Assembly: GCF_030812255.1 (NCBI RefSeq)
Contig: NZ_JAUSSH010000003.1
Coordinates: forward strand, 62,001 to 126,000
Direction of reading: 5' to 3'
DNA from: Paeniglutamicibacter psychrophenolicus
GTDB lineage: Bacteria; Actinomycetota; Actinomycetes; Actinomycetales; Micrococcaceae
DNA length: 64,000 nucleotides
Of this stretch, positions 7,073 to 33,011 are shown in pieces; within the stretch, counting starts at the first letter, position 1, and the number at the start of each line of letters is the position of its first letter. Position numbers and translations under genes: made by a program. The notes beneath the pieces were generated by a model. That model worked only from the letters and a program-made list of their open reading frames with translations. It was not told the DNA's origin and did no database searches.

Positions 7073-8161
7073 ATGCAGAGCAACAAGCAGCAGCCGCACG
7101 GCATGCGTATCGTCTCCGGGCCCGCTTCGGCCCAGCCAGCATCCGCCGACACCGCAAACATGGCTGCGGACCCCGAGGGGAGCGGTGCCGCCGGCACCGC
7201 CACGGCAACGGAGCCCAACCCCGGACCGGGCACCGCCGAGGTCCCCGTCCTGGATCCGCAGCTGCCCGATCCGGCACCGGTCCAGGACGAGGCGCCCCTG
7301 TCCACGCCCACGCTCGGGCAGGTGCTGGTCGCCGTCGAGGAACTCTGGCCGGCGTCGTTGGCCGAGCCCTGGGACTCGGTCGGACCGGTCGTCGGGCGCC
7401 CCGAGCGGCCCGTCAAGCGCATCATGTTCGCCGTGGACCCGACCCTGGAGGTCGTGGCCGACGCCGTGGCCCGCGGCACGGACCTGCTGATCACCCACCA
7501 CCCGCTGCTGCTCAAGCCAGTGAACTCCGTGGCCGCCACCGGGTTCAAGGGCGAGGCGGTGCACCTGCTCATCGAATCCGGCTGCGCCCTGGTCACCGCC
7601 CACACCAACGCCGACTCGGCCATCGGCGGGGTCTCCGACGTGCTGGCGGACATCTTCGGGCTCACCGAAACCCAGCCGCTGGCGCCATCCAAGGACGGGC
7701 TGCCCGAGGAGGGCATCGGCCGGGTCGGCATGCTGCCCGAGCCGCTGCAGCTGCACGAGTTCGCCTCCCGCGTCTTTTCGGCCATGCCGTCGGTGGCCGG
7801 GGGAGTGCGCGTGGCCGGGGAACGGGCCGGCATCGTGCGCAAGGTCGCGGTCTGCGGCGGGGCCGGGGACTCGCTCTTCGACGCGGTCCGCGCCGCCGAG
7901 GCAGACGTGTACGTCACCGCCGACCTGCGCCACCATCCGGCCTCCGAGGCCCGCGAGGCCGCGCTGAACGGCAAGCCGTACCTGATCGACGTCTCGCACT
8001 TCGGCTCCGAATGGCTCTGGCTGCCCAGCGCCGCCGATGCGCTGAAGAACGTGCTGCAGGACCTGGGGCACGACGTGGAGATCGGGGTCTCGGCGATCAA
8101 CACCGATCCCTGGGACTTCATTCTAGTAGGATCTGCGGACGAAAAACCTGTCTTGACATGA
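7073..8161 (+). CDS. Nif3-like dinuclear metal centre protein (COG0327) with an altered C-terminus
   Basis: A 362-residue member of the Nif3/YbgI family (annotated as GTP cyclohydrolase I type 2 homologue; physiological role unsettled). Metal-binding motifs are visible: LLITHHPLLLK, TAHTNADSA and LIDVSHFGSE near the C-terminus. Residues 1-~80 are a Pro/Ala/Thr-rich extension before the conserved TPTLGQVLVAVEELWPA, so translation might start later. The last residues are not native: after NTDPWDFIL the frame runs into VGSADEKPVLT and stops, because AT-rich DNA joins the gene at 8125. A second copy of the same junction sequence at 9294-9312 restores a shorter, family-like ending. Confidence 0.88.
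   Translation: MQSNKQQPHGMRIVSGPASAQPASADTANMAADPEGSGAAGTATATEPNPGPGTAEVPVLDPQLPDPAPVQDEAPLSTPTLGQVLVAVEELWPASLAEPWDSVGPVVGRPERPVKRIMFAVDPTLEVVADAVARGTDLLITHHPLLLKPVNSVAATGFKGEAVHLLIESGCALVTAHTNADSAIGGVSDVLADIFGLTETQPLAPSKDGLPEEGIGRVGMLPEPLQLHEFASRVFSAMPSVAGGVRVAGERAGIVRKVAVCGGAGDSLFDAVRAAEADVYVTADLRHHPASEAREAALNGKPYLIDVSHFGSEWLWLPSAADALKNVLQDLGHDVEIGVSAINTDPWDFILVGSADEKPVLT
8106..8124 (+). repeat. left attachment-like direct repeat (attL) inside nif3
   Basis: Sequence ATCCCTGGGACTTCATTCT, in frame with nif3 (TGG GAC TTC ATT). It matches 9294-9312 at 18 of 19 positions, with a perfect 14-bp core TGGGACTTCATTCT. Confidence 0.85.
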
Positions 8162-8206
8162 GTTTTTAGGTCAAAAAATTCTTTCCAAGTCGGCATGTCT
8201 CAACGC

Positions 8207-8241
8207 GAAAAGGCCCTCCCGGAGCAAATCTGGGAGGGCCT
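8207..8241 (-). terminator. intrinsic terminator of the 177-aa protein gene
   Basis: A perfect 10-bp stem (AGGCCCTCCC at 8211-8220 with 8232-8241) is followed on the minus strand by TTTT. It lies about 45 bases after the stop of the minus-strand gene and about 50 bases after the nif3 stop, so it could also end plus-strand transcripts. Confidence 0.85.
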
Positions 8242-8283
8242 GATTCACATATCTTGTCGTGGAATCGGGTTCTTCGAAGGCTC

Positions 8284-8817
8284 TCAAGGCTTTGTCTTTA
8301 TACCTAAGTCTCTTTGCATCTCTTCCAGAAGTAGGTGGAGGTCGTTGCGGACTATTTCTCGGACTTCTTGGAACTTATCCGGTTGGGTGCGTAGTCCTAT
8401 TAGTTGCTTCAACTTAATTGAATGCGCTACTGCGTCCTTGGCGATTTGTTCACTTGCAAGCAATCTGAGGAGCGAGTTCATTGCGACTAGCTCGTTTCTT
8501 GAATCTCTCGCGTTTTGAACTCGCGCACTAACACCGGCATCATTCATGCATGAACGGGCCACGGTTGCAAACTTGGAGTATACCGATAGTTTTTCGCCGC
8601 GTATCCAGCGTTGTCTTTCGGCCTCTTCATCTTCAGTCCGTTTTTGTCTATCAGCTTTTATCTCCGATTTCTTTGACCAAATGGAGACAAAGCTGGTCAG
8701 TGTGGCTCCTCCAAATGCACTAGCAAGAACCGTCAAAACTAAGTTCGGAGGAGTTGTGCTTGCTTGCGCAACCACTGGAGCTACGGTTTCCGTTGCACTG
8801 TAAAAGATTTGAAGCAT
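8284..8817 (-). CDS. unrecognised 177-aa membrane-anchored protein of the insert
   Basis: No family recognised. The N-terminal ~45 residues contain a hydrophobic segment at about 25-45 (LVLTVLASAFGGATLTSFVS). A strongly charged stretch follows at 48-75 (KKSEIKADRQKRTEDEEAER), likely a coiled coil, and then a mainly helical soluble domain to the end (KFQEVREIVRNDLHLLLEE). Topology suggests a single-pass inner-membrane protein with a cytoplasmic helical domain. Codon use is AT-rich and unlike the flanking genes, indicating transfer. It has its own terminator and no obvious Shine-Dalgarno before the ATG at 8817. An accessory (defence- or conjugation-related) role is possible but unsupported. Confidence 0.7.
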   Translation of the reverse strand: MLQIFYSATETVAPVVAQASTTPPNLVLTVLASAFGGATLTSFVSIWSKKSEIKADRQKRTEDEEAERQRWIRGEKLSVYSKFATVARSCMNDAGVSARVQNARDSRNELVAMNSLLRLLASEQIAKDAVAHSIKLKQLIGLRTQPDKFQEVREIVRNDLHLLLEEMQRDLGIKTKP

Positions 8818-8828
8818 ACCGAGAGCAT

Positions 8829-8867
8829 AGAAGAAGACTCTCGCTAACCTGGCGAGAGCCTTCTTCT
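8829..8867. terminator. 16-bp-stem hairpin between the two transcription units of the insert
   Basis: AGAAGAAGACTCTCGC (8829-8844) pairs with 8852-8867 around a 7-base loop, with one A/C mismatch. It sits just after the small-gene pair and just before the 177-aa gene on the minus strand. No U-run follows, so termination or RNA processing are both possible. Confidence 0.6.
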
Positions 8868-8872
8868 GTTAC

Positions 8873-9007
8873 CTAATCACGTACCCATACGTGCTTTTCG
8901 GCATCATAGGTAACCCAGTATCCGGATGGATTTGCGAGTGACCCCTGAAAAGACTGACGTGCCCCGTCCCACGGTCGGTCTGCGAGTGATCGTCATTCAT
9001 AGGTCAT
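8873..9007 (-). pseudogene. 44-codon small ORF interrupted by one in-frame TGA
   Basis: An ATG at 9005-9007 overlaps the stop of the preceding YjzC-like gene as ATGA, a classic coupling arrangement. The frame reads MTYE, then TGA (8993-8995), then RSLADRPWDGARQSF, later GYWVTYDAEKHVWVRD and a TAG stop. The downstream part is aromatic-rich and strongly protein-like, and the other two frames are not. Changing one base of the TGA would restore a 44-residue protein. The simplest reading is a nonsense mutation; read-through or a sequencing error cannot be excluded. Function unknown. Confidence 0.55.
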
Positions 9008-9195
9008 CTTCCACGACCTGACTTGTTGCGAGTGCGATCCACCGGAATGTAGGACTGACCCGGCTTAGGAGTTGGTGGGAGCTGGGGACCTTTAGGTGCC
9101 GTGCGTTCCTGACCTGTACGTCCTCCGCGTGGGCCAATGATCTCCCACTGTGCCGATACGGTTGCCTTGTTGCCGGGCTTCAATGGCTCTGCCAT
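9004..9195 (-). CDS. YjzC-like small protein, 63 aa
   Basis: MAEPLKPGNKATVSAQWEI followed by GPRGGRTGQERT and PPTPKPGQSYIPVD resembles small bacterial proteins annotated as YjzC family, with a KPG..A..SGQY..GPRGG core and a Pro/Lys-rich tail. The function of that family is unknown. The frame is open upstream to 9309, but the family core begins at the ATG at 9195, preceded by GCGGAA. Its stop overlaps the start of the broken small ORF, so the two once formed a coupled pair. It is AT-rich relative to the host chromosome. Confidence 0.6.
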   Translation of the reverse strand: MAEPLKPGNKATVSAQWEIIGPRGGRTGQERTAPKGPQLPPTPKPGQSYIPVDRTRNKSGRGR

Positions 9196-9293
9196 TTCCG
9201 CATAGTTCGAAAGTTTATCCACATCTTCAACATTCTGACCAGTAGCTAATGTGCAACAGTTGTGAATTATGTCTCGCTTATAGGTGAAGATGC

Positions 9294-9312
9294 ATCCTTG
9301 GGACTTCATTCT
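9294..9312 (+). repeat. right attachment-like direct repeat (attR)
   Basis: ATCCTTGGGACTTCATTCT, 18/19 identical to 8106-8124. It is immediately followed by host-like G+C composition. Confidence 0.85.
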
Positions 9313-9322
9313 GACCCCGTAA
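9299..9322 (+). pseudogene. displaced original 3' end of nif3
   Basis: In the nif3 frame the right repeat continues TGG GAC TTC ATT CTG ACC CCG TAA, giving W-D-F-I-L-T-P-stop. This compact ending fits the Nif3 family better than the 12-residue tail now attached to the intact gene. It reads as the pre-insertion end of nif3. Confidence 0.75.
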
Positions 9323-9347: not shown

Positions 9348-9404
9348 GATGCGGTGCGCGCTCCCCTCCCGGTCCAACGGGGGCAGAGAAGGGCGCACCG
9401 CATC
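9348..9404 (+). terminator. probable original nif3 terminator, stranded downstream of the insert
   Basis: GATGCGGTGCGC (9348-9359) and its exact complement at 9393-9404 form a 12-bp stem with a 33-base loop. It begins 25 bases after the displaced nif3 stop and would serve the uninterrupted gene. No U-run is present. Confidence 0.55.
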
Positions 9405-9501
9405 CCTTGCGTCCGAGCCGTTCCCGTCCCAGCGGACGGCCTTGGCAGGTTATCCACAGATTTGCCGCAGGTGGTGGCGGACTCCGATGCGGGGGAGCAC
9501 G

Positions 9502-20959: not shown

Positions 20960-22510
20960 ATGAACGACGTGCGATCTACCGCCGGCGCCAAGGTCCGTGC
21001 GGGCCGCGGGCCGCACCTGTCCCCGTTGATCCAGGGCACCATCGGATCGGTCATGATCCTGCTGGGCTCCTACGCCATCGGCTGGCTGGCCAGTGCCTCC
21101 CCGTTGAACCGCTACCCGCTGCTGATCGCGATCCGCACCGAGTACTCCGGGGTCATCACCGGCACCGTCGTGCTGACCCTGGGCTGCTGGATCCTGTTCC
21201 GTGCCTGGTTGCGGCTGGGCCAGCAACTGGCCGGCTGGCCCGAGGGGTCCCTGGCCGTGGTGAAGAAGGCGGTCTGGGCCTGGAGCGTCCCGATGCTGGC
21301 CGCGCTGCCGATCTTCTCCCGCGACGTCTTCGCCTACATCGGCCAGGGCCGGCTGGTGGCCGCCGGGCAGGATCCCTACGTCGATGGCATCTCCACGCTG
21401 AACAACTGGTTCCAACTGGGCGCGGACATCACCTGGGCCGAATCCGAGACCCCCTATGGCCCGCTCTACCTGAACGTGGAGTACTGGGTGAATCGGCTGG
21501 TGGGCACGAGCCCGGACGCCTCGGTGCTGCTCTTCCGCCTCGTCGCCTTCCTCGGGGTGATCCTGTGCATGGTCTACGTGCCCAAGATCGCCGCGCTGCA
21601 CAACGTCTCCGGCGCCAAGGCCACCTGGATCTCGGTGGCCAACCCGCTGTTTTTGATCAGCTTCGTCGCCTCCGCGCACAACGACTCGCTGATGGTCGGC
21701 CTGGCACTGGCCGGGACCTACTACGCGGCCACGCGCCGCGGCGTGCTCGGGGTGGTGCTGATCGCCGCGTCCATCGGCGTCAAGCCCATCACCCTGGTGC
21801 TGCTGCCGTTCATCGGGCTGCTCTGGGCCGGGTCCGGGGCAAGCTGGGGACGCAAGATCCGCTACTGGGTGTACACCGCGTCGCTGGTGGGCATCATCAT
21901 GGCGATCATCGGCTGGGCCAACGGGTACGGCTTCGGCTGGCTGACCGTGATGCTGGGCACCGGCACCGGCACCGTCGTCTTCGCCCCGGTGGGCGCGTTG
22001 AACTCCGTGCTCTCGGGCGCGCTGGGGACCATCGGGCTGCCCACCGACTGGCTGCTGCCGGTCCTCAAGCTTGTCGGCCGGCTCGCCTCGGTGGGACTCG
22101 TGCTGGTGCTGATCTTCAAGGGCAAGCACTCGCACCTCGTCCAGCGCATGGCCCTGGCCTTCTCCGCGCTGGTGGTCCTCTCGCCGATCATCCAGCCCTG
22201 GTACATCCTGTGGCTGCTGCCCTTCTTCGCCATCACCGGCATCCGGGACGACTGGCAGCTGCTCTGGGTCTACTTCACCACCGCGTTCTTCATCGCCTTC
22301 GGCGCCGCGGACCAGATCTTCATCTGGCAGTTCCTCTCCGACCTCGACCCCTGGGTCAAGCACCTGTCCACGGGGATTTCCTGGGTGGCGATGGTCTACC
22401 TGGCGTTCCTGGACCCGCGCACCAAGCAACTTTTTGCCGCGACGCTGCCGGCCCGGCTGCGCCGCGGAACCGGACCGGTGCGCCGCGATCCCGGGGTGCC
22501 TACGCCGTGA
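20960..22510 (+). CDS. polyprenol-phosphate-mannose-dependent alpha-1,6-mannosyltransferase, MptA/MptB-like (paralogue 1)
   Basis: A 516-residue GT-C membrane glycosyltransferase with about 12 hydrophobic helices. The first periplasmic loop carries the expected acidic residue (FSRDVFAYIGQGRL). Other family blocks are ESETPYGPLYLNVE, WISVANPLFLISFVASAHND and PIIQPWYILWLLPFFA. In mycobacteria and corynebacteria MptA/MptB extend the alpha-1,6-mannan core of lipomannan using polyprenyl-phospho-mannose; in Micrococcaceae the product is probably a lipomannan-like glycolipid. ATG 20960 follows an AGGAGCGG site. Its stop overlaps the start of a paralogue by four bases, so the two are co-translated. 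Confidence 0.88.
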   Translation: MNDVRSTAGAKVRAGRGPHLSPLIQGTIGSVMILLGSYAIGWLASASPLNRYPLLIAIRTEYSGVITGTVVLTLGCWILFRAWLRLGQQLAGWPEGSLAVVKKAVWAWSVPMLAALPIFSRDVFAYIGQGRLVAAGQDPYVDGISTLNNWFQLGADITWAESETPYGPLYLNVEYWVNRLVGTSPDASVLLFRLVAFLGVILCMVYVPKIAALHNVSGAKATWISVANPLFLISFVASAHNDSLMVGLALAGTYYAATRRGVLGVVLIAASIGVKPITLVLLPFIGLLWAGSGASWGRKIRYWVYTASLVGIIMAIIGWANGYGFGWLTVMLGTGTGTVVFAPVGALNSVLSGALGTIGLPTDWLLPVLKLVGRLASVGLVLVLIFKGKHSHLVQRMALAFSALVVLSPIIQPWYILWLLPFFAITGIRDDWQLLWVYFTTAFFIAFGAADQIFIWQFLSDLDPWVKHLSTGISWVAMVYLAFLDPRTKQLFAATLPARLRRGTGPVRRDPGVPTP

Positions 22511-24111
22511 GCCGGACCCCGCGCCCGGCATCGCCGCCGGCACCCGGCCGCCGCTTCGTTCGCGCCACCCGCGCCCTGGAGACGCTGCGCCAGCGCAGCT
22601 CCCGGGTCCCGGGGTTGCGCCACCTCACCGGCGGCGGGGAGAACACCCCGGACATCGCCATCGCCCAGGGGCTGCTCGCCTCGATCATGGTGATGGTCGG
22701 GTCCTGGGGCGTGGGCTGGATCCCCAGCTCGCAGGAATCCCTGCTGGCCCGGGCGAAGGTGCTGCTGCCGCTGCGCGTGGAAATGCTCGGGGTGATCGTC
22801 TGCACGCTGCTGCTGGCCCTGGGCTCGATGCTGCTCTTCCGCGCCTGGCTGCGGCTGCGCCAGCGCGCCCAGGCCGATGAGGCCAACCCGGTGGCGGTGG
22901 TCGCCAAGTCCATCTGGGTCTGGTCGATCCCGCTGCTGTTCTCCTTCCCGATCCTGTCCAAGGACGTGTACTCCTACCTGGGCCAGGGCCGGCTGATGCA
23001 TGCCGGGCTCTCGCCCTACACCGAGTGGGTCTCCCAGCTGCCGGGCTGGTTCGCGCAGGGCTCGGACTCGCTGTGGGCCGAATCCACCTCGCCCTACGGG
23101 CCGCTGTTCTTGATGTACGCCCGGTTCGTGTACTTCGTCTCCGGCGGGGTGCCCGAGTTCGGGGTGGCGCTGATGCGCCTGGTGGCCGTGGCCGGGGTGG
23201 CGCTGTGCGCCTGGGCCGTGGTGGCGCTGGCCCGGGCCGCGGGCCGGGATGCGGCCTGGCCGCTGTGGATCTCGGTGGCCAACCCGCTGTTCCTGCTGAA
23301 CATGGTCGGCGGTGTGCACAACGACGGGCTGATGGTCGGCGGGGTGCTGCTCGGCTTCGTGCTGGTGCTGCGCAAGCGCCGCCTGGCCGGGATCCTCGCC
23401 GCCAGCGCCGCGATCGCGATCAAGCCCATCGTGGTGCTGGTGCTGCCCTTCCTCGGCCTGGCGATGGTGGCGGCCAACGCCGGCCTGGGCGCGAAGATCC
23501 GCGCCTGGGCCTACACCGGTGCCGTGGCCGGTGCCGTGATGGCGCTGCTGGGCTGGGCTTCGGGCCTGTGGTTCGGCTGGATCCCCGCGATGGCCGGTGC
23601 CGGGTCCGCGGCCTTCCCGTACGCGCCGGTCGGGCTGCTGGGCATGCTCGCGGGCTGGATCGGCTCGCTGGCCGGCGGGGATCTGTGGTTCATCGCCGGG
23701 ATCGTGTTCACGTTCTTCCGGCTGGCTTCCCTGGCAATCGTCTTCTGGCTGGCCATCCGCCGCCCGGCCGGACCCCCGCTGCTCTACGCCGGCTATGCCC
23801 TGGGCGCCGCGGTGGTGCTGGCCCCCATCATCCAGCCCTGGTACCTGCTGTGGCTGATCCCCTTCTTCGCGCTGTCCCGCCGCTACCCGGTGAACTGGGA
23901 ACGCGCCCTGTACATCCTGTGCCTGCTGGTGCTGCTCTCCGGGGTGGTGGACCAGTTGTCCATCGGCCAGTGGTTCTCGCTGCTGGCGGTGCGCCTCTTT
24001 GCCGCCGCCACCACCCTGGCCTACATGGCCTACCTGGTGTTCATCGACCCCAAGACGGCCTCCATCTTCGGTGCCGACAGGCGCCGGCCGCTGCGCCAGG
24101 GCAGCAACTAG
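22507..24111 (+). CDS. polyprenol-phosphate-mannose-dependent alpha-1,6-mannosyltransferase, MptA/MptB-like (paralogue 2)
   Basis: A 534-residue GT-C enzyme sharing every block of paralogue 1: LSKDVYSYLGQGRL with the catalytic-type Asp, ESTSPYGPLFLMYARF, WISVANPLFLLNMVGGVHND and PIIQPWYLLWLIPFFAL. Residues 1-~45 form an extra Arg/Pro-rich cytoplasmic tail. Translation starts at GTG 22507, overlapping the previous stop as GTGA. The tandem pair most likely arose by duplication; by analogy one member may initiate and the other elongate the mannan backbone, which is inference. Confidence 0.88.
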   Translation: MSRTPRPASPPAPGRRFVRATRALETLRQRSSRVPGLRHLTGGGENTPDIAIAQGLLASIMVMVGSWGVGWIPSSQESLLARAKVLLPLRVEMLGVIVCTLLLALGSMLLFRAWLRLRQRAQADEANPVAVVAKSIWVWSIPLLFSFPILSKDVYSYLGQGRLMHAGLSPYTEWVSQLPGWFAQGSDSLWAESTSPYGPLFLMYARFVYFVSGGVPEFGVALMRLVAVAGVALCAWAVVALARAAGRDAAWPLWISVANPLFLLNMVGGVHNDGLMVGGVLLGFVLVLRKRRLAGILAASAAIAIKPIVVLVLPFLGLAMVAANAGLGAKIRAWAYTGAVAGAVMALLGWASGLWFGWIPAMAGAGSAAFPYAPVGLLGMLAGWIGSLAGGDLWFIAGIVFTFFRLASLAIVFWLAIRRPAGPPLLYAGYALGAAVVLAPIIQPWYLLWLIPFFALSRRYPVNWERALYILCLLVLLSGVVDQLSIGQWFSLLAVRLFAAATTLAYMAYLVFIDPKTASIFGADRRRPLRQGSN

Positions 24112-31409: not shown

Positions 31410-33011
31410 GTGATTTCCGTTGCCGATTTGGAGCTGCGCGCCGGCGCACGCCTTCTCATGGAGGGCGTCTCGTTCCGCATCGACAAGGGCGACAAGATCG
31501 GCCTCGTCGGGCGCAACGGTGCCGGCAAGACCACCATGACCCGCGTGCTCGCCGGTGAAACGGCGCCCGCAGGCGGTTCGGTCACTTCCACCGGAACCAT
31601 CGGCTACCTGCCGCAGGACCCGCGCACCCCCAACATGGAGCAGCTGGCCCGCGACCGCATCCTTTCGGCCCGCGGCCTGGACATCATCGTCGGCAAGCTG
31701 AAGAAGTGCCAGGACGACATGGCCTCCGAGGATGCAGCGGTGGCCGCGAAGGCCATGCGCCAGTACGACCGCATCGAGGCCGAGTTCATTGCCGGCGGCG
31801 GATACGCGGCCGAGTCCGAGGCAGCGGCGATCTCCAACAACCTGGCCCTGCCCGAGCGCCTGCTCAACCAGGCGCTGTCCACCCTCTCCGGCGGCCAGCG
31901 CCGCCGCGTGGAGCTTGCCCGGATCCTGTACGCGGATGCCGAGACGCTGCTGCTCGATGAGCCCACCAACCACCTTGACGCGGACTCGATCACCTGGCTG
32001 CGCGGCTTCCTGGCCAACCACCAGGGCGGCCTGCTGGTCATCTCGCACGACACCTCGCTGCTGGAGGCCACCGTCAACAAGGTCATCCACCTGGACGCCA
32101 ACCGCGCCAGCATGGACGTGTACAACCTGGGCTGGAAGCGCTACCTGCAGCAGCGCGAGACCGACGAGCGGGCCCGCAAGCGCGAGCGCGCCAACACCGA
32201 GAAGAAGGCCACCACCTTGCTGGCGCAGGCCAACAAGATGAAGGCCCGTGCCTCGGGCGCCTCCGCCGCGCAGTCCATGCTCAAGCGCGTGGACCGGTTG
32301 ATGGGCGGGCTGGACGAGGTCCGCGTCGCCGACCGCGTCGCAAACCTGCGCTTCCCGGATCCGGCCCCCTGCGGCAAGACCCCGCTCATGGCCGAGGGCC
32401 TGTCCAAGTCCTACGGTTCGCTGGAGATCTTCACCGATGTCTCCCTGGCCATCGACCGCGGCTCCAAGGTCGTCATCCTGGGCCTGAACGGCGCGGGCAA
32501 GACCACGCTGCTGCGCATGCTCGCCGGGGTGTCCAACCCCGACACCGGCGACCTGGTCCCGGGCCACGGCCTGAAGATCGGCTACTTCGCCCAGGAGCAC
32601 GACACCCTGGACGTCGACCGTTCGGTGCTGGAAAACATGCGCTCGGCGGCCCCGAGCCACATGGGCGACGCGGAGGTGCGCGGCATCCTGGGTTCCTTCA
32701 TGTTCTCCGGCGACGACGTCTCCAAGCCGGCCGGGGTGCTCTCCGGCGGCGAGAAGACCCGCCTGGCCCTGGCCACGATCGTGGCTTCCAGCGCCAACGT
32801 GCTGCTGCTCGATGAGCCCACCAACAACCTGGACCCGGCCTCGCGCGCCGAGATCCTCGGCGCGCTGTCCAACTTCACGGGCGCCGTGGTCATGGTGTCC
32901 CACGACGAGGGCGCGGTTGCCGCGCTGAACCCGGACCGCGTGGTGCTGCTGCCCGACGGTGACGAGGATTTGTGGAACGATTCCTACCTGGAGCTCGTCA
33001 CCCTGGCCTAA
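31410..33011 (+). CDS. ABC-F family ATPase (ribosome-associated)
   Basis: A 533-residue soluble protein with two ABC ATPase domains and no membrane segment. Walker A motifs are GRNGAGKTT (~35) and GLNGAGKTT (~360), signatures LSGGQRRR (~160) and LSGGEKTR (~450), and Walker B LLLDEPTN in both. The charged linker between domains (~250-310, RARKRERANTEKKATTL) matches the P-site tRNA-interaction arm of ABC-F translation factors. Its role is probably in translation or antibiotic protection rather than transport. GTG 31410 follows AAAGGG at a suitable distance; the in-frame upstream stretch from 31341 is rejected. Confidence 0.9.
   Translation: MISVADLELRAGARLLMEGVSFRIDKGDKIGLVGRNGAGKTTMTRVLAGETAPAGGSVTSTGTIGYLPQDPRTPNMEQLARDRILSARGLDIIVGKLKKCQDDMASEDAAVAAKAMRQYDRIEAEFIAGGGYAAESEAAAISNNLALPERLLNQALSTLSGGQRRRVELARILYADAETLLLDEPTNHLDADSITWLRGFLANHQGGLLVISHDTSLLEATVNKVIHLDANRASMDVYNLGWKRYLQQRETDERARKRERANTEKKATTLLAQANKMKARASGASAAQSMLKRVDRLMGGLDEVRVADRVANLRFPDPAPCGKTPLMAEGLSKSYGSLEIFTDVSLAIDRGSKVVILGLNGAGKTTLLRMLAGVSNPDTGDLVPGHGLKIGYFAQEHDTLDVDRSVLENMRSAAPSHMGDAEVRGILGSFMFSGDDVSKPAGVLSGGEKTRLALATIVASSANVLLLDEPTNNLDPASRAEILGALSNFTGAVVMVSHDEGAVAALNPDRVVLLPDGDEDLWNDSYLELVTLA

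Follow-up and report, generated by a model that had tools for sequence, protein, structure and literature searches.

The nif3 3' end and its AT-rich insert

The stretch of Paeniglutamicibacter psychrophenolicus DNA analysed here, 64,000 nucleotides in full length and hereafter called the window, carries a nif3 gene of the DUF34/NIF3 family (Pfam PF01784, E 3e-70), and an insert bracketed by direct repeats lies at the 3' end of this gene, where it adds 1,188 bp of DNA (Table 1). The two copies of the 19-bp repeat are identical at 18 positions. The left copy is in frame with the last nif3 codons, and through the insertion the gene, which originally ended in ILTP-stop, now ends in ILVGSADEKPVLT-stop. 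From the right copy, DPWDFILTP can be read, followed by the stop codon TAA. This is the ending ...DPWDF(I/V)LTP found in all 14 other genomes of the genus that were searched, 13 of which end in LTP-stop and one in LTPGA-stop. The GC (guanine plus cytosine) content between the repeat copies is 49.4%, compared to 68.1% for the whole window. No other stretch of this size (1,169 bp) in the window has so low a GC content, the runner-up reaching 61.1%, and the insert is the sole strongly AT-rich block.

Near-perfect pairs of 19-mers are not rare in the window as such: a seeded scan gave 36 start pairs (at most one mismatch, within 20 kb) in 10 clusters, and the repeat at the nif3 tail is one pair among these. 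It stands out because of the AT-rich block and because relatives possess empty sites. Its 14-bp core TGGGACTTCATTCT occurs at only these two places if up to two mismatches are allowed, while 0.16 matches are expected by chance and two or more matches were obtained in one of 100 shuffles. Other near-identical repeats of the window were seen at 21520-23910 and 31945-32830.

If the flanks of the insert are joined, they align without a break across the junction in five of the seven congeners tested, with identities of 90.2% (L002), 90.1% (L003), 93.5% (L004), 83.6% (L008) and 83.5% (L009). With the insert kept in, the congener alignments split and overlap at the repeat. In L002, L003 and L004, whose nif3 protein is 92-94% identical to that of the window, the DNA after the nif3 stop codon resembles the window DNA beyond position 9322. 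This includes a counterpart of the hairpin at 9348-9404, which directly follows nif3 in these three relatives (the L002 copy was folded). In the window, the T-run of this hairpin is poorer and its folding z modest at -2.26, with 7 of 200 shuffles folding equally well. All 14 congeners examined are unoccupied, and hence the insert is not a fixed part of nif3 in close relatives. From the empty sites we conclude that the 1,188 bp were inserted site-specifically. The preliminary description of this DNA had proposed the same from the window alone: its repeat with the 14-bp core, the coordinates, the AT-rich DNA in between, the in-frame left copy, the family-like ending at the right copy, the downstream hairpin that fits the original terminator and integration into the 3' end of nif3 are all borne out by our comparison.

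Shortly after nif3, a GTTATCCACA motif, which we take to be DnaA-box-like, is found in the window (9446-9458) and in several relatives; in the window it precedes a DUF222/HNH gene.

Table 1. Position of nif3 and of the features in and around the insert (numbering of the window)
Feature	Position	Strand	Basis or remark
nif3 with replaced C-terminus (...NTDPWDFIL, then VGSADEKPVLT and stop, instead of ...NTDPWDFILTP and stop)	7073..8161	+	Pfam, tails of relatives
Left direct repeat (attL core)	8106..8124	+	Counterpart in MYb214 at L168:12923
Left arm: nif3 tail and stop, putatively element-supplied	8125..8161	+	26/37 bases match MYb214; common protein pattern GSAxEKPxLT
Terminator-like hairpin (stem of 13 bp) separating the new nif3 end from the convergent cargo gene	8211..8241	.	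Folding z -3.36
Cargo open reading frame, 177 aa	8284..8817	-	No significant family
Second hairpin, 16-bp stem	8829..8867	.	Folding z -5.93
Small gene, similar to a gene of the G003 element (9.6 kb); interrupted at codon 5 by an in-frame TGA	8873..9007	-
63-aa gene, PHROG family phrog_3202	9004..9195	-	90% identical to MYb214 copy
Right arm	9196..9293	.	80/98 bases match MYb214 ungapped, first 28 of 28
Right direct repeat (attR core)	9294..9312	+
Stranded original nif3 ending (T-P-stop)	9313..9322	+
Original nif3 terminator-like hairpin, now apart from the gene	9348..9404	.	Folding; counterparts in relatives

A related insert in Arthrobacter sp. MYb214

The open reading frame (ORF) at 9007-9309 was used as query against 295 genomes of the family and matched ten of them, the window's own included. 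Among these was Arthrobacter sp. MYb214 (G108), a member of another genus, with a match in two pieces of which the second reached the end of the attachment (att) site. Here too an insert occupies nif3, at the same position and in the same orientation, with cores at L168 12923 and 14761 and a length of 1,838 bp from core to core. Its nif3 tail DPWDFVLLGSAPEKPTLT-stop is followed by a hairpin, a 330-aa ORF and a 63-aa ORF, the latter two on the minus strand, intact and 2 bases apart; beyond them, some 420 bp of upstream sequence lead to attR and the original nif3 ending. No integrase, primase or packaging gene was recognised in this element. We compared eight of the 17 other genomes of the MYb214 genus within a 395-genome family set: all eight are unoccupied, and the joined flanks of MYb214 align in one piece with seven of them. 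In the eighth genus-mate, G259 (L274, G259:C4), the similarity breaks off some 17 bases past the nif3 stop, where the next gene starts, which we attribute to some other insertion or rearrangement.

The two inserts share their ends and differ in their main cargo, which comprises 177 aa in the window and 330 aa in MYb214. The 177-aa protein is predicted to be mostly helical, while its single-sequence structure model is poor (mean predicted local distance difference test score, pLDDT, 65.5), and weak relatives were found in two of 394 other family genomes searched. A similarity to a 179-aa protein of congener G003 was unconvincing (E 0.015 for that single comparison, 12 residues). The 330-aa protein is related to proteins on 17 plasmid records from several phyla, and has one weak phage match and none in Pfam, PHROGs, PADLOC or NCBIfam. 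Over the element, the identity between window and MYb214 amounts to 84.6% in a stretch of 188 bp, 81.7% in one of 126 bp and 71.6% in one of 95 bp that falls mostly within nif3 itself, while their host nif3 DNA is 68.4% identical over 702 bp. The 63-aa protein of the window is closer to that of MYb214 (90% identity) than to that of the window's own congener G003 (68%). Since the shared element DNA is thus mostly 82-85% identical as opposed to 68% for nif3, the simplest account would be that the element spread horizontally between genera, and this second related insert at the same site supports a mobile lineage. Vertical descent from an ancestor of the family, with most lineages losing the element, would explain the same position in two genera as well. 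However, it is at odds with this difference in identity and with the unoccupied sites of all congeners and all compared genus-mates of MYb214, and we consider it scarcely credible.

The exchange point falls within TGGGACTTCATTCT in the window and, judged from the mismatches between attL and attR, within TTCGTG in MYb214; the width of the exchange region fits a tyrosine-type overlap, which is compatible with such an enzyme but no proof of it. In the right arm, the blocks TTCCGCATAGTTCGAAAGTTTATCCACA and AATGTGCAACAGTTGTGA are identical in window and MYb214 with variable DNA between them. Such conserved blocks with a variable spacer, seen in these two sequences, may be putative protein-binding sites rather than a gene. 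A non-site-specific origin, for example by transposition or by illegitimate insertion with a long target duplication, would agree with the flanking direct repeat and with the lack of an integrase. However, the ORFs of the insert include no transposase, and none of the four inverted-repeat pairs found links the two ends, so it is without the hallmark of insertion sequences or miniature inverted-repeat transposable elements, namely terminal inverted repeats plus a short target duplication. Furthermore, two relatives with similar arms occupy the identical position. This alternative is therefore very improbable.

If compared to MYb214, the window copy lacks about 320 bp directly upstream of the start codon of the 63-aa gene, including an AGGAGG that is present there in MYb214. 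About a dozen bases separate the start of the 177-aa ORF from the strong hairpin, which would leave little room for a promoter. Because of the internal stop codon in the small gene and the lost region upstream of the 63-aa gene, we regard the window copy as a decayed member that is probably inert and probably can neither move nor express most of its cargo. The preliminary description had seen a compact integrative element here; that this copy is a working one is not supported.

Possible source of the parts and search for an integrase

Some parts of the mini-elements recur in a larger element and in phage-like surroundings. Congener G003 carries, at a site other than nif3, a 9.6-kb element (L170:8070-17699; G003:C1, about 134.1-143.7 kb) between 16-bp repeats GGGTTGGGTCATGATC. 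It encodes a 537-aa serine integrase (phrog_95, E 1.6e-75; a CcrB match at E 2e-11 is weak and far below the cut-off), a second serine recombinase of 221 aa that matches phrog_125 (DNA invertase) at E 5e-36, and a primase that matches phrog_1156 at E 8e-30 and, below the cut-off, the NCBIfam P4-family primase at E 5e-9. Near the left end of this element lie a counterpart of the window's broken small gene, a 64-aa gene of the 63-aa family and a related upstream region; the 63-aa protein of the window is 68% identical to its G003 relative. An alignment of about 280 bp links the upstream region of MYb214 to that of G003; it scores 69, while none of 300 shuffles exceeded 41, and the similarity ends some 75 bp short of attR. 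Across this end point, the window and MYb214 can be matched ungapped, with 28 of 28 bases identical on the module side.

In G094 (L171 9485-10656), a gene of the 63-aa phrog_3202 type is directly followed by one for a protein 51% identical to the 330-aa cargo of MYb214, some 2 kb from a gene for a major head protein (phrog_283, E 1e-21). Such pairs of a 63-aa-type gene and a cargo gene thus also travel in phage-like surroundings. The 63-aa family was further detected at five loci in viral contigs, which carry no att information, and we consider it a general phage-associated gene. Upstream of the 63-aa gene, a ACTACATCTAGTG motif, presumably resembling an NrdR box, is present in MYb214 and G094 and occurs as CTACATCTAGTG in G003, while it is absent from the window. 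From the upstream region of G094, only the 21-bp ACTACATCTAGTG stretch could be aligned (score 35, best of 300 shuffles 27). The module similarity to G003, the right junction shared by both mini-elements and the phage-like gene pair of G094 suggest that the mini-elements are an end piece of a satellite-like element that became linked to att arms specific for nif3.

Neither ORF translations nor family profile searches revealed an integrase inside the window insert, as the preliminary description had noted, and no other recombinase or relaxase was recognised among its ORFs. Elsewhere in the window genome, we obtained three matches to tyrosine recombinases, of which two are strong, presumably XerC and XerD, and one lies beside glnA, as well as six matches to serine recombinases in open frames of 60-247 aa. 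In MYb214, tyrosine recombinases are matched six times, with roughly 38 kb between the element and the closest match, and serine recombinases once. None of these enzymes is known to act on nif3-site elements. In another part of the window genome (L156 431-2052; G000:C7, about 48.6-50.2 kb), a gene with a helix-turn-helix domain and a 277-aa tyrosine integrase abut the 3' end of a gene that, by eye, is glutamine-synthetase-like. This is possibly another gene-end element, while a quick look recognised no direct repeat at its borders.

To describe the distribution of occupied sites, several patterns were employed. A scan with the attL arm of a collection in which about 85,000 species are represented by one genome each, and from which the window's own genome may be left out, gave 17 matches. 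One is the nif3 locus of MYb214 (L211) and the other 16 belong to organisms that, by record title, we take to stand outside the Micrococcaceae. A degenerate core pattern matched 277 of the 395 family genomes and gave no match in MYb214 despite its occupied site. Among the matches listed, two nearby cores on the same strand were seen in the window genome only; G175 has two same-strand matches 1.4 Mb apart, and G006, G073, G110 and G250 have one per strand. A pattern for altered nif3 ends, in which the usual codon does not come next, matched 11 of the 395 genomes. Besides the window genome and MYb214, these comprise nine natural variants, followed by GC-rich DNA, which were rejected. Since these family-wide patterns are leaky and diverged sites would escape, the counts of occupied sites are lower bounds. 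Searches of phage and viral collections with the element and its proteins gave nothing useful, and a 14-mer scan of viral contigs with at least 120 matching stretches was too unspecific and set aside.

Proposed mode of movement and significance

How could such small elements have reached nif3 in two genera? We propose an integrated mobile element that uses the last nif3 codons as attB. The insertion occurred by recombination within TGGGACTTCATTCT, and the element supplies its own nif3 tail, stop codon and terminator-like hairpin, the latter beginning 50 bases past the new stop in the window. The host gene stays intact save for its last residues because the element brings these parts along. The moving unit would then comprise a left att arm of about 40 bp, a right one of 75-100 bp, a small gene module of phage type and a single cargo gene that can be exchanged. 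It may descend from the end of a larger, phage-satellite-like element and may already have lost integrase and replication genes when it spread, the window copy having decayed later. The stretch from the module to attR is alike in both mini-elements, and the short form may therefore predate the spread. As the elements contain no integrase and searches of both genomes gave no further copy of the arm, movement would have to rely on an outside integrase, provided in trans by a nif3-targeting helper, or on accretion beside such a helper. Leaky patterns on the 395 family genomes revealed no integrase-bearing element at nif3, nor did viral contigs. We give an even chance to this account of an integrase-less, att-flanked element with exchangeable cargo that is moved by an integrase in trans and resembles in layout a cis-mobilizable element (CIME).

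Several observations weigh against this proposal. Only two occupied nif3 sites are known among the 395 family genomes, the attL-arm pattern gave no third case in the collection of about 85,000 species, and no further copy of the right arm was found in the window genome or in MYb214. Core and arms returned two short phage matches at E 0.1, judged to be chance, and no exact pattern match in viral contigs. In two of the seven congeners, L005 and L006, the match extends past the junction by just 9 and 14 bases, beyond which the DNA is different. With regard to the satellite-like origin, the similarity of the arm alone to G003 is not significant (score 21; 13 of 300 shuffles as good), and the end point of the G003 similarity, read from the tail of a gapped alignment, is approximate.

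A serious rival is independent decay: a full-size nif3-targeting satellite or prophage might have entered both genera, after which each copy would have lost integrase and replication genes on its own and kept attL, attR and the cargo of the end, as ordinary decayed islands do. In favour of this, decay is evident in the window copy, larger elements with an integrase contain the module, decayed remnants flanked by att sites are described as common (PMC5704250), and the left sides of both copies differ inside the first 40 bp or so. Furthermore, a parent with the module beside attR and the integrase near attL would yield a shared right junction as well. However, that junction is common to both copies, both show the same tidy layout of nif3 tail, hairpin and convergent cargo, the two MYb214 ORFs are intact and nearly contiguous, and the leaky patterns found no full-size parent at nif3 in the 395 genomes. 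We regard independent decay as quite possible, yet somewhat short of an even chance.

Known systems provide parallels for our proposal of an integrase-less element moved in trans. Known CIMEs are typically several kilobases in size, and the nif3 mini-elements are far smaller. Elements that lack an integrase and persist between att sites are a known kind (PMC5704250), and the nif3 elements resemble them in keeping attL and attR, as seen from the direct repeat, the empty sites and the precise join, in lacking integration and transfer genes among the recognised ORF families, in their internal cargo and in residing at the end of a target gene. In contrast to CIMEs, no related integrative and conjugative or integrative and mobilizable element was seen at nif3, the nearest larger relative being the serine-integrase and primase element of G003 at its other site. 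The module they share speaks for a phage-satellite-like parent and not for a conjugative one, and the mini-elements may have spread between genera in short form. Pseudo-SCC elements are remnants of staphylococcal cassette chromosome (SCC) elements without ccr genes at the 3' end of rlmH/orfX. Like them, the nif3 elements are recombinase-free cassettes with direct repeats and variable cargo at a conserved protein-coding 3' end. They differ from SCC elements as described (PMC7029136) in gene, host and sequence, the target being nif3 and not rlmH, and no ccr-bearing partner was found.

Integrase-lacking phage satellites of Actinobacteria are on record (PMC10690885). With the 9.6-kb element of G003, the mini-elements have in common the gene of 63-aa type, the small gene downstream of it and some 280 bp on its upstream side, but unlike phage satellites neither the window nor the MYb214 element carries a recognised integrase, a replication or primase gene, or a packaging gene. 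Among the islands reported at ssrA of Dehalococcoides, 15 are without an integration module and were suggested to be cis-mobilizable (PMC3146451). They share with the nif3 elements the lack of an integrase and the use of a single conserved gene, while they differ in their transfer-messenger RNA gene target and host, and in having sister islands with an integrase. The 537-aa and 221-aa serine recombinases of G003 recall the large-plus-small pairs described for Dehalococcoides islands and SCC (PMC3146451).

Taken together, the novelty lies in two related elements that lack a recombinase, differ in cargo and occupy the same protein-coding site. Among the titles and abstract beginnings returned by searches of open-licence PubMed Central literature, none describes nif3 as an att site; the preliminary description likewise knew of no mini-element there. 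The 3' end of nif3 is thus added to the protein-coding attachment sites. Tentatively, and with less than even confidence, one might speculate about a whole family of cassettes of 1-2 kb, with hardly anything beyond att arms, a small module of phage type and one exchangeable cargo gene, that move between genera as short units into the nif3 3' end, entirely by an integrase in trans, each supplying a replacement tail and terminator for its host gene. The two natural examples, with their similar ends and different cargo, offer a basis for defining the minimal DNA needed for mobilisation in trans. If it is true that the short form moves, gene-sized integrase-less islands would be under-counted by tools that seek integrases or kilobases of cargo.

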